34,540 nt of DNA from a virus. Below the pieces are notes generated by a model. That model did not search any database, was not told where the DNA came from, and saw only the letters and a list, made by a program, of their open reading frames with translations. The stretch's first letter is position 1, and every line of letters starts with the position of its first letter. Position numbers and translations under genes: made by a program. The stretch covers positions 1-34,540 of the IMG/VR virus record IMGVR_UViG_3300017748_000042. The stretch is one strand, 5' to 3'. Positions 3,032 to 10,635 of this stretch are shown here, in pieces.

Positions 3032-3048
3032 TTGACTATACCTGTCAA
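3032..3048. promoter_or_regulatory. Operator-like dyad at the integrase promoter
   Basis: TTGACTATACCTGTCAA matches the dyad at 10477-10493 at 13 of 17 positions, including both outer half-sites TTGAC and TGTCAA. It overlaps the -35 box and part of the spacer, so a bound repressor would block int transcription. Binding is inferred. Confidence 0.5.
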
Positions 3049-6687: not shown

Positions 6688-7362
6688 CTAAGTATTATGG
6701 ATCGTCATATATAGATCACTAGGATTCTGTAATGCAATCATAACATGGGTACCCCAATCTAATGCAACAGGAGCAATATGCTCAATTGAATTAGCTTGTG
6801 ATATGTATGGATTTAACAAGTGCCATTTTTGTCTAAAGTTTGGGTCGTAACTTTCTATACCAAAGTTAGCTAATGGATAAGGTATACATAATCTTATAGT
6901 TTCTTCATCTCTGACTTTACATATACTTAAATTACGTTGTATTTTATCTGACACTATTCCATCTTCAACATGCTTTCCATTAATAAATAATAATCTACCA
7001 CGCATCCAACTCTCAAGTTCTGGTGGATATTGGAAAGCTATTAAGTGTTCAGGTAAATAACAATTACCAACTATAACTTTACTATTCAGACTGTTATACA
7101 ATGACACAGTATGTGTATTATCAAGAAAACCCTTAATAGGTATTCTTTGTTCATCTACAATAAACAAATTAGGTGTTACGCCTAACACTTCTGCATACTT
7201 AGCAGCATCAACCTTACTCATATGAGTTCTGTTGTTCATGTGCCTTGACACAGTTTCAGGTGCAACACCTATTGCTTTTGCTAACTTCTTACCAGAAAAC
7301 CCTTTTTCTTCGGCTAACCTTTTTAATACACTTCCAGCCATACTACTATCACTCACAACCAT
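6688..7362 (-). CDS. CI-like repressor with XRE helix-turn-helix
   Basis: This 224-residue protein has an N-terminal XRE/lambda-repressor domain (residues about 10-62: VLKRLAEEKGFSGKKLAKAI, VAPETVSRHMNNRTHMSKVD, AAKYAEVLGV). A distinct C-terminal domain of about 150 residues follows (YLPEHLIAFQYPPELE, RGRLLFING, ALDWGTHVMIALQ). That region could be a LexA/S24-like dimerisation domain, but I see no clear Ser-Lys dyad, so self-cleavage is not supported. It is divergent from a Cro-like gene, in the usual immunity-region arrangement. The start at 7362 is supported by aggagg five bases upstream and a good promoter beyond it. It should keep lysogeny by binding the dyads at the early promoters. Confidence 0.85.
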   Translation of the reverse strand: MVVSDSSMAGSVLKRLAEEKGFSGKKLAKAIGVAPETVSRHMNNRTHMSKVDAAKYAEVLGVTPNLFIVDEQRIPIKGFLDNTHTVSLYNSLNSKVIVGNCYLPEHLIAFQYPPELESWMRGRLLFINGKHVEDGIVSDKIQRNLSICKVRDEETIRLCIPYPLANFGIESYDPNFRQKWHLLNPYISQANSIEHIAPVALDWGTHVMIALQNPSDLYMTIHNT

Positions 7363-7429: not shown

Positions 7430-7446
7430 TTGACTCTTACTGCCAA
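7430..7446. promoter_or_regulatory. Operator-like dyad at the rightward promoter
   Basis: TTGACTCTTACTGCCAA matches the dyad at 10477-10493 at 15 of 17 positions. The central CTTACTG is identical and not explained by the -35 consensus. A weaker related site (right half AAGTGGCAA) lies at 7478-7494. Repressor/Cro binding is inferred. Confidence 0.6.
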
Positions 7447-7457
7447 GCATATACAAT
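7430..7457 (+). promoter_or_regulatory. Rightward early promoter
   Basis: TTGACT (7430-7435), a 16-nt spacer and TACAAT (7452-7457) precede the Cro-like gene by about 45 bp. The -35 lies in the operator-like dyad at 7430-7446. It would drive the early right operon (7502-9767). Confidence 0.7.
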
Positions 7458-7501: not shown

Positions 7502-7708
7502 ATGAAGTTAAACGAATACAGAATGAACAAAAAATGGTCTTACGGAAGGCTTGCTATGCTACTAGGTTGTAGCCACGCAACTGTATGCAGACGTTGGTGT
7601 TTACCAAATACGCACCCTAACAGTATGATACCTGACCGCAAGTTTATGAGGGCAATATTAAGATTGACAGATGGTGCAGTACAGCCAAACGATTTTTATA
7701 TGGAATAG
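7502..7708 (+). CDS. Cro-like small helix-turn-helix protein
   Basis: A 68-residue protein that is largely one DNA-binding domain. YGRLAMLLGCSHATVCRRWC (about residues 14-33) reads as a helix-turn-helix, with Gly in the turn and SHATV in the recognition helix. The C-terminal PDRKFMRAILRLTDG resembles the last helix of Cro/YdaS-type proteins. It is the first gene of the rightward early operon, divergent from the CI-like repressor. That is the position of Cro in lambdoid immunity regions. It probably represses the repressor promoter during lytic growth. No strong Shine-Dalgarno precedes the ATG. Confidence 0.75.
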   Translation: MKLNEYRMNKKWSYGRLAMLLGCSHATVCRRWCLPNTHPNSMIPDRKFMRAILRLTDGAVQPNDFYME

Positions 7709-8005: not shown

Positions 8006-8166
8006 TGAAGTATGAGATTATCATAAAGCTTAATGCTAACAGAAGGCCAACCCTTGCAGAGCTAAACGACTTTCTCTTTTGCAGAATAAGGGATAACGAC
8101 TTGAAGTATACTGTAAACACTATGGGAGAACCTATGGAATTAAAGAGGGATAATGGCAAGAAATAA
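8005..8166 (+). CDS. Small hypothetical protein with GTG start
   Basis: A 53-residue reading frame beginning with GTG overlapping the previous TAG (taGTG), with ggaaggg as ribosome site about six bases upstream. The protein runs VKYEIIIKLNANRRPT, then LAELNDFLFCRIRDND, ending in KRDNGKK. Its 3' end overlaps the methyltransferase start by 14 bases. The tight packing on both sides and the good ribosome site support it as a gene. Function is unknown. Confidence 0.6.
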   Translation: MKYEIIIKLNANRRPTLAELNDFLFCRIRDNDLKYTVNTMGEPMELKRDNGKK

Positions 8167-8716
8167 GCATGACTTCTACCCAACACCCTATAGCATTGTA
8201 GATACTGTTGTAAGGCTCGTAGACGAGCAATGGGATGTCAATAGGATCTGGGAGTGCTGTGCAGGGGATATGCGTTTCAGTAATGCTTTAGGCAGGAATG
8301 ATAGGCAAATAATATCTACGGACATAAGAACAAACCAGAACTTCTACTGGTATAAGGAAACACTAGCCCCGGCTTTGGTAACTAATCCACCTTTTAACAG
8401 CATAAGAGAGTTTATCGATCATGCTTTTGCTATAGGGGTAGAGAAGATGGCATTGGTATGCCCAGAGCGTTTATGGGCGTGTGGAAGGGGTTATGCACAA
8501 TGGAACAGGCATAGGCCTAGCCATTGGTACAACCTGACATGGAGGGAGGATTATCTTGGTAAGGGTGGCAAGCCGGATAGAGCATTAGCCATAGCGATAT
8601 GGAACACGCCACACTCGGAGCAATGCCAGTATCAGGTATTGGATAAACAAAGCAATCAAGGAGATTTATATGAATTACATAGCAGCAGTGCAAGGCAAGA
8701 AGTGGGTGCAGTATAA
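8153..8716 (+). CDS. DNA adenine methyltransferase (phage type)
   Basis: A 187-residue protein with DFYPTP near the N-terminus (7-12). The AdoMet-binding motif I is IWECCAGDMRFSNAL (Glu34 to Gly38). Asp57 in STDIR may bind the ribose, and the catalytic motif is TNPPF (78-81). NPPF in place of DPPY/DPPW is seen in several phage N6-adenine and related methyltransferases. The protein is short, with a small C-terminal target-recognition part (SHWYNLTWREDY). It has no restriction partner here, so it is a solitary enzyme. It may protect phage DNA or time replication or transcription. The last residues (HSSSARQEVGAV) overlap the next small gene, so they may be unimportant. Confidence 0.8.
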   Translation: MARNKHDFYPTPYSIVDTVVRLVDEQWDVNRIWECCAGDMRFSNALGRNDRQIISTDIRTNQNFYWYKETLAPALVTNPPFNSIREFIDHAFAIGVEKMALVCPERLWACGRGYAQWNRHRPSHWYNLTWREDYLGKGGKPDRALAIAIWNTPHSEQCQYQVLDKQSNQGDLYELHSSSARQEVGAV

Positions 8717-8816
8717 GATGTATAAGCTTTTTAATGATATTAATGCAGAGATTTATTTACGCAAGAAGTACAAGGATAAGCTTTTAGCTATCTATCCTAT
8801 TGTGAGAGAGTTGTGA
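8670..8816 (+). CDS. Small hypothetical protein
   Basis: A 48-residue frame starting MNYIAAVQGKKWVQYKMYK and ending AIYPIVREL. The ATG has an excellent Shine-Dalgarno (aaggag, seven bases upstream) inside the end of the methyltransferase gene. The TGA overlaps the GTG start of the next gene. The protein is basic and helical with many aromatics. No family is recognised. The strong ribosome site and the coupled 3' end make it likely to be translated. Confidence 0.6.
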   Translation: MNYIAAVQGKKWVQYKMYKLFNDINAEIYLRKKYKDKLLAIYPIVREL

Positions 8817-9358
8817 GAGTCACTATAGATAACACTAGTGTTAACACTAGTAATAACCAGTTATCTAGAGAAGCAGTAACAACCCACCTAGATTCTTATT
8901 GTTTTAAAAGAGAGCTAATTAGAGAAGCTATATATAGCACTATAGTTAACTATAGAGTCTATACTAGTACTAGTTATTACTTGTTGTCAGAAAGGGTTGT
9001 CAAGAGGGATTTTGGAAACACTAAGGAATTAGCACGTTTTAAGAGAGAGATTGTACTTGTCAATGATTGCAGTATTGATGAAAACAATCAAGAAAGCGAA
9101 TCACTTGCAGTAGATGTTGAGGATTTACAGGATTTGTTAAGACGGACAACGCTTAACATGAATGCACAATATCGACAGGCAAAGGATAGGCGTAGAAGGA
9201 TGGATGGTATTGACTGGAGAATGCAAAGAGTGTTTAGAACCCTTCGTAGAAGATTAAGCATAGACAGGTATAATGAAACAGTAAAGTATGTGGGTGGGTT
9301 ATCCAGAGTTGATAAGAGTGATTGGCTAGACGAAGCAGAGGTATTATATGAACTCTAG
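8813..9358 (+). CDS. Unknown early protein whose 5' half holds a palindrome cluster
   Basis: This 181-residue protein starts from GTG overlapping the previous stop (GTGA), with agagag upstream as a weak ribosome site. No family is recognised. The N-terminal 60 residues are rich in Ser, Thr, Asn and Tyr (TSVNTS, STIVNYRVYTSTSYY). Much of this composition follows from perfect DNA palindromes in the coding sequence. Then comes an acidic segment (ENNQESESLAVDVEDLQDLL) and a strongly basic helix (YRQAKDRRRRMDGIDWRMQR, FRTLRRRLS) that could bind DNA. It occupies the slot that lambda O fills: early right operon, after cro. I therefore consider a replication-initiator role possible, but sequence alone does not show it. 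Confidence 0.65.
   Translation: MRVTIDNTSVNTSNNQLSREAVTTHLDSYCFKRELIREAIYSTIVNYRVYTSTSYYLLSERVVKRDFGNTKELARFKREIVLVNDCSIDENNQESESLAVDVEDLQDLLRRTTLNMNAQYRQAKDRRRRMDGIDWRMQRVFRTLRRRLSIDRYNETVKYVGGLSRVDKSDWLDEAEVLYEL
8834..8974. repeat. Cluster of perfect palindromes (candidate origin or binding array)
   Basis: Four perfect palindromes lie within 141 bp. ACTAGTGTTAACACTAGT (8834-8851, 18 bp) and CTATAGTTAACTATAG (8940-8955, 16 bp) share a GTTAAC centre. GCTATATATAGC is at 8927-8938 and ACTAGTACTAGT at 8963-8974 (12 bp each). The last three are nearly contiguous. The cluster is AT-rich and inside the gene at 8813-9358. I see no comparable concentration elsewhere in the window. Confidence 0.7.
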
Positions 9359-9767
9359 GTTGTTAGCAATGAACTGGGATATGCCTAGTCTTGATAGATT
9401 GTATATGGAAGCAGCTACTACCTTGCATCGATTGCCACCTGTTCTAAGAAAGAAGCATAGTTCGTTATGGCCTAGTTATGCCTTAGCAAATGCTTGGAGT
9501 GGGTATGGTTATGATAATGAAGTTCGATTACATCCTACTACAGAGGATATAACACGATTGGAGTTTGCTTTGGATATAGGATGGGATCTAGAGAAGGAGT
9601 ATAGGGTAATGTTATGGTATACTGCTCATAGTGCTGTTAATAGAGAGCGTGGCCCTAAGTGGAAGGCTTTATCTAAAAGATTTCATTGTGATGCCAGAAC
9701 TGTGAAGGGTAAGTATGAGAAAGCCCTTATCAAAGCATACTATCTTATCAAAGGGCTTCAGAGTTAA
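9348..9767 (+). CDS. DUF6362-like protein, possible late regulator
   Basis: A 139-residue protein. The C-terminal half (VMLWYTAHSAVNRERGPKWK, then ALSKRFHCDARTVKGKYEKA) reads as a helix-turn-helix resembling sigma region 4 or DUF6362. The N-terminal half (RLYMEAATTLHRLPPVLR, SLWPSYALANAWSGYG) is typical of the same family, which often sits just before small-terminase genes. It ends the rightward early operon. Position and fold suggest a transcription factor for the late genes, similar in role to ArpU/RinA or Q. It overlaps the previous gene by 11 bases and converges with the next gene by 4. Confidence 0.7.
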   Translation: MNSRLLAMNWDMPSLDRLYMEAATTLHRLPPVLRKKHSSLWPSYALANAWSGYGYDNEVRLHPTTEDITRLEFALDIGWDLEKEYRVMLWYTAHSAVNRERGPKWKALSKRFHCDARTVKGKYEKALIKAYYLIKGLQS

Positions 9768-10476: not shown

Positions 10477-10493
10477 TTGACACTTACTGTCAA
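10477..10493. promoter_or_regulatory. Operator-like perfect dyad upstream of the leftward cassette
   Basis: TTGACA-CTTAC-TGTCAA has perfect 6-bp arms around a 5-bp centre. It is the best copy of the motif also found at 3032-3048 and 7430-7446. On the minus strand its TTGACA can serve as -35, with TAAAAC (10470-10465) 17 nt downstream as a fair -10 for the leftward cassette. On the plus strand the -10 match (TTGATA, 10499-10504) is poor. Confidence 0.6.
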
Positions 10494-10616: not shown

Positions 10617-10635
10617 ACCCTTAAATGATTCGCTT

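Follow-up and report, generated by a model that had tools for sequence, protein, structure and literature searches.

A candidate replication origin embedded in the 5' end of an early gene of a temperate marine phage

Results

Layout of the locus

The window, that is, the whole 34,540-nucleotide stretch analyzed (IMG/VR record IMGVR_UViG_3300017748_000042), is DNA of a marine, temperate phage. One of its early genes carries two arrays of short words in its coding sequence. The features of the region are as follows.

7430..7446, + strand: repressor-operator-like site between the cI-like gene (6688-7362, - strand) and the cro-like gene (7502-7708, + strand); overlaps a promoter-like match at 7430-7457
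8813..9358, + strand: array-bearing gene, 181 aa, with a GTG start that overlaps the upstream stop codon; probable origin/initiator gene
8821..8866, no strand assigned: word array I, ATAACACTAGTGTTAACACTAGTAATAACCAGTTATC; ACTAGT at 8834 and 8846 (12-bp step)
8867..8926, no strand assigned: spacer between the arrays, with the conserved core TTGTTTTAAAAG at about 8899-8910; GC 33%
8927..8984, no strand assigned: word array II, GCTATATATAGC, CTATAGTTAACTATAG, ACTAGTACTAGT and ACTAGTTATTAC; includes the region's least stable 50-mer (8929-8978)
9119..9355, + strand: C-terminal domain of the array-bearing gene, about 79 aa; the only part in common with the short proteins of L097 and L098; predicted five-helix bundle
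9348..9767, + strand: DUF6362 neighbor gene (PF19889, E 2.6e-12; phrog_6836), HTH-like by inspection

The CTAG cores of the words are mostly 9, 12 or 15 bp apart, 12 bp being the commonest step. By nearest-neighbor calculation, the stability of array II falls in the lowest 0.3% of 50-mers of the window and the lowest 0.2% of those of the early region. Neither DnaA boxes nor CtrA TTAA-N7-TTAA sites lie within the arrays, and Rfam and tRNA scans returned no matches. Cumulative GC skew over the window tracks gene orientation only and is uninformative on the origin.

Relatives were collected in two ways. A protein search of IMG/VR found clade A (L001-L006 and L075), and a search with the neighboring DUF6362 gene reached clade B (L085, L088 and L090-L096) together with the divergent L087 and the GC-rich L097 and L098. 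No homologs of the array-bearing gene were found among INPHARED phages, PLSDB plasmids or GTDB genome contigs.

The gene holds four GANTC sites. The one in the arrays (8955) is missing from L004, L005 and L075, and a reading of the arrays as GANTC methylation sites was rejected because this site is not kept. GANTC is under-represented in the window (41 sites versus about 77 expected).

In the slot 5' of the array-bearing gene, the window has a DNA-methyltransferase-like gene (8153-8716); L005 has a different methyltransferase-like ORF there, and L088 a PAPS-reductase-like gene (L088:332-1144). This slot is a moron hotspot beside the putative origin.

Palindromes and selection on the DNA

The original prediction was built on four perfect palindromes, all of which are present exactly where it placed them: 18 bp at 8834-8851, 12 bp at 8927-8938, 16 bp at 8940-8955 and 12 bp at 8963-8974. 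The GTTAAC center that it noted is indeed common to the 18-mer and the 16-mer. A fifth palindrome, of 14 bp (8830-8843), overlaps the 18-mer. The number of palindromes of at least 12 bp in the whole window is ordinary (14 versus 12.3 expected); it is the clustering of five within 145 bp that is unusual. At most three clustered in 299 of 300 whole-window shuffles and four in the remaining one, and 5000 local dinucleotide shuffles never produced five.

Codon shuffles, in which the protein was fixed and synonymous codons were drawn at the phage's own usage, gave a mean palindrome score of 1.7 against the 32 observed, a value that none of 5000 reached. The five clade-A lineages tested were likewise all more palindromic than their codon shuffles (score P 6e-4 to <2e-4). 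Random synonymous recoding almost never recreates the palindromes, which argues for selection at the DNA level and not for a by-product of Ser/Thr/Tyr codons. The earlier view that the palindromes force unusual coding is therefore half right: the same shuffles reveal that the amino acid sequence is compatible with the palindromes without requiring them.

The reading frame itself is truly coding. In each of the eight homologs tested, the first ~63 codons are free of in-frame stops, whereas the two alternative frames have 2-8 and 13-16. Lineages differ in length by a 3-nt indel, which preserves the frame. The start codon, GTG in the window, is ATG at the same position in L005.

Synonymous differences among clade-A genes amount to 0.8% in codons 1-60 versus 22% after codon 85, and to 28% and 25% in the neighboring DUF6362 and terS genes; the region of the spacer core is nearly free of synonymous change. 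The corresponding values in clade B are 5% in the first 45 codons (0% at most array codons) versus 23%. A recent exchange of the 5' segment could produce this pattern in a single clade, but is a less ready explanation for its separate occurrence in two.

These tests also bear on the idea that the cluster has no function in cis and arose through drift of low-complexity coding or through insertion of a mobile palindrome. The coding is rich in Ser/Thr/Asn/Tyr, and block II has been exchanged for another block between lineages, both of which fit this idea. Both the codon-shuffle and the synonymous-site tests contradict it, however, and we regard this explanation, already disfavored, as hardly credible. 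A generic mobile palindrome was rejected too: a 17-base word found in other IMG/VR contigs is isolated there and never clustered.

Arrays in related phages

The layout is kept across the relatives: array I, a spacer with a TTGTTTTAAAAG-like core, and array II, with the same word in both arrays. The core is present in clades A and B, and L087 has the variant TAATGTTTTTAAG. The word is ACTAGT in clade A and CTCTAGAG/ACTAGAG in clade B; variation by clade is expected if the sites and their binder co-evolve. In 12 of 12 homologs, arrays I and II have 8-mers in common beyond the codon-shuffle null (P ≤0.021). In clade B, array II repeats array I in nearly inverted form, and in L087 it is a direct copy, a 41-bp cassette (GTGCTAGTAGAGAGCATACTAGAGAGTACACTAGAGAGTAC) occurring there in two exact copies 96 bp apart; clade A has matches of both kinds. 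L004, L005, L006 and L075 have another palindromic block (...TAGTTATAACTAGTAATACTAGTATTAACACTAGT) in place of the window's block II (CTATAGTTAACTATAG...ACTAGTACTAGT).

The arrays of L097 and L098, whose genomes are 57% GC, are non-coding. Their words, CATAGC and TTAGCTAAG, lie directly 5' of the start codon of a minimal protein and flank an AT-rich stretch whose stability ranks in the lowest 0.1% among 50-mers at the locus.

The original prediction looked to related phages for palindromes kept at synonymous sites. Synonymous change is indeed very low in the first ~60 codons, but the exact palindromes are not kept. What persists is the pair of word arrays, present in every relative, so that none retains the protein having lost the sites. 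Judged from the sequences, the perfect palindromes are a by-product of the CTAG-centered word array and not a conserved feature.

Folding of the transcript or of single-stranded DNA was considered as an alternative target of selection, with hairpins regulating translation or priming. In all homologs tested, the folding energy of the first 63 codons is lower than that of codon shuffles (z -2.9 to -7.8), and the clade B arrays pair with each other. Any palindromic or inverted array folds well, however, and the low RNA folding energy follows from the arrays being palindromic. Nor is a structure common to the relatives, since clade B pairs array I with array II, L087 has direct copies and the folds of clade A vary. 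This explanation appears improbable. In L085, L090 and L093 of clade B, the near-inverted arrays could form a stem of ~30 nt, and the folding z values are -6.5 to -7.8 versus codon shuffles.

The encoded protein

The C-terminal domain is the one part found in every homolog, and the 77-aa proteins of L097 and L098 consist of that domain alone. The relationship to these short proteins is given by hhalign (E 4e-5, above all of 300 column shuffles) and is backed by synteny, the order being repressor, Cro-like gene, small genes, array, short gene, DUF6362, terS and terL. AlphaFold2 predicts a five-helix bundle for residues 95-181 (mean pLDDT 87); the model of the full-length protein is unusable (pLDDT 37). 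The domain model has no convincing relative among solved structures (best Foldseek PDB E 4.3, best VIA Z 4.0) and one match among viral models (E 0.045). A PDB sequence search with the protein gave nothing meaningful, and a profile search detected no recognized initiator or DNA-binding domain and no O, DnaD or HTH match. The N-terminal third, where the arrays are encoded, probably acts only as a linker.

Replication genes and the equivalent slot in pelagiphages

The original prediction stated that this genome has no recognizable replication gene, and this holds for DnaB_C, Bac_DnaA_C and phrog_270 (O-like), whose profiles gave no matches in five contigs of the family, which are metagenomic and possibly incomplete. 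A phage DnaA-like initiator was rejected, the Bac_DnaA_C domain having been looked for and not found. No P-like helicase loader was identified in the contigs, in which small ORFs without assignment remain. All five contigs carry a nuclease, and the window also encodes a protein resembling single-strand-annealing proteins.

The nearest cultured relatives by virion genes are the HTVC010P-type pelagiphages, with 59% identity in TerL and 57% in portal. Between an HTH gene and a terS-like gene, in the slot of the array-bearing gene, these phages encode a lambda-O-like protein that matches phrog_270 (1.5e-7) and phrog_678 (3.7e-7) and is annotated as a putative transcriptional regulator.

L076:2783-3481, - strand; L077:22819-23511, - strand; also in L101-L108: pelagiphage O-like gene, by PHROG profile

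Seven of the ten pelagiphages examined have a GATAGC(C) repeat, out of frame at 22-bp spacing, in the linker of this gene. It is read in two frames, as KIAV and QDSR, which is a mark of DNA-level selection. HTVC034P has an 18-bp repeat with a 21-bp step in its place, and the O-like genes of HTVC203P and Skadi-7 have no significant repeat. Codon-shuffle P values for the repeats of single pelagiphages range from <0.001 to 0.18. These repeats suggest that the pelagiphage O-like gene probably holds an in-gene origin, and the gene of the window may then be its stripped-down counterpart.

The C-terminal domain of the window protein scored 22.5 against the O-like C-termini in hhalign, whereas the highest score among 300 column shuffles was 20.1; the match is weak (E 0.005, probability 7%). 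A resemblance to the extreme C-terminus of the pelagiphage O-like proteins is thus suggested. HTVC034P gp20 (L076:8076-8558), a DnaA C-terminal domain on its own (PF08299, 1.6e-16), has no counterpart in the window phage.

Interpretation of the arrays

The reading that we favor, with somewhat better than even confidence, is that 8821-8984 comprises all or the core of an iteron-type replication origin and lies within the 5' end of the gene for its own probable initiator. Two arrays of a short CTAG-centered binding word flanking an AT-rich spacer would constitute the origin. Either the protein as a whole or its conserved helical C-terminal domain would bind the arrays, melt the unstable DNA and recruit the host helicase and polymerase. 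Several observations point this way: the succession of array I, spacer and array II, an iteron-origin architecture with very low duplex stability; DNA-level selection within coding sequence, seen as palindromicity and as synonymous-site conservation in two clades; a word common to both arrays in all 12 homologs, with turnover of the word between clades; the non-coding arrays of L097 and L098 around unstable DNA beside a minimal protein; the lack of DnaB_C, phrog_270 and Bac_DnaA_C in the five family contigs; the lambda-O-like gene in the same slot of pelagiphages with related TerL and portal proteins, most of those examined having a repeat in its linker; and the suggestive C-terminal resemblance to those O-like proteins. 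The original prediction of an in-gene origin in the slot of the lambda origin is thus the best-supported reading, although the palindromes are not its conserved feature and the protein is no O homolog by profile, with no winged helix and no loader seen.

The main rival is an operator array. Cro, the DUF6362 protein or the product of the array-bearing gene would act as a regulator that binds both arrays and loops the DNA, and would thereby control the late genes, DUF6362 and the array-bearing gene itself. A palindromic word repeated in two separate arrays fits looping repressors, and arrays with a small protein are also compatible with this. The DUF6362 gene is immediately 3' of the array-bearing gene in homologous loci, its product being an alternative candidate binder of the arrays, and the array of L097 and L098 adjoins a start codon. 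Against an operator, promoter matches in the window are near expectation (14 versus 12.9) with none on the + strand within 8821-8984, L097 likewise has no better-than-chance promoter over its arrays on the coding strand, and the arrays of clades A and B sit inside the gene. The repressor-type sites of this phage moreover differ, being TTGACnnTTACTGnCAA near the integrase, cI/cro and 10437 genes. On balance we consider an operator array unlikely, though it deserves serious attention. The arrays as CI/Cro operators were rejected, the TTGACnnTTACTGnCAA sites between cI and cro having no word in common with them. Sites like TTGACnnTTACTGnCAA, with 0-2 mismatches, are at 3032-3048 (5' of the integrase gene), 7430-7446 (between cI and cro) and 10477-10493 (5' of the 10437 gene, - strand).

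Recognition by terminase, as a pac/cos-like packaging site or otherwise, would fit the location of the arrays 5' of terS/terL in the loci seen. The terS gene is ~1.7 kb away, however, at a distance that differs among loci, and pelagiphages with 59% identical TerL have no array-bearing gene. A role in packaging therefore seems very improbable.

If the arrays are an origin, the protein could represent a new initiator family: a helical protein of ~77 aa that is related neither to O, RepA or DnaA nor to helicases and would start replication from two arrays of a clade-specific word. The origin would lie 5' of the gene in some lineages and have been absorbed into the frame in others, where the N-terminal residues would be largely dictated by the binding sites. 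We offer this extension as a tentative possibility.

Comparison with known origins

SaPI-type satellites have two-array iteron origins, and iterons are also known from RepA_N plasmids (PMC7145576). The family studied here resembles these in its clade-specific word arrays and, in L097 and L098, in arrays around an AT-rich spacer beside a putative initiator gene; it differs in having no Rep helicase or RepA_N protein, and the arrays of the window are translated.

The origin of lambda-type phages (lambda, Stx phages) is located inside the O gene (PMC7466680). As in lambda, an early-right-operon gene in the same map slot of the window contains repeated words of partial symmetry, the presumed binding sites, within its coding sequence, and easily melted AT-rich DNA (by nearest-neighbor stability) adjoins them. 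Unlike those of lambda, which lie in the middle of the gene, the arrays are at its 5' end in two clusters, and the words step 12 bp versus ~20 bp. A P-like gene was not detected, and the protein is unrelated to O families by profile; it is not classed as O-family because the winged-helix O domain was searched for and not found. We infer that the element works like the lambda origin in O, but without membership of the O family.

The O-like gene of HTVC010P-type pelagiphages (HTVC034P gp09, Lederberg_38) occupies the same slot in phages whose virion genes are related, contains repeats in most cases and is weakly similar at the C-terminus. It differs by an N-terminal winged helix and by repeats of other sequence with a 21-22-bp step, and these phages also carry the gene for a DnaA C-terminal domain.

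No replication start has so far been known for the temperate relatives of the abundant HTVC010P-type pelagiphages, and the locus offers a testable candidate origin and initiator for them. It also predicts an origin for the HTVC010P group, in the O-like gene now labeled a transcriptional regulator. The family also provides a natural series of putative binding words that change jointly in two arrays and move between non-coding and coding DNA.

A further short sequence, GCGAATCA, lies at 9096-9103 within conserved SES codons of the array-bearing gene, in homologs of clades A and B. An inverted copy is found at 10626-10633, directly 5' of the terS start codon.
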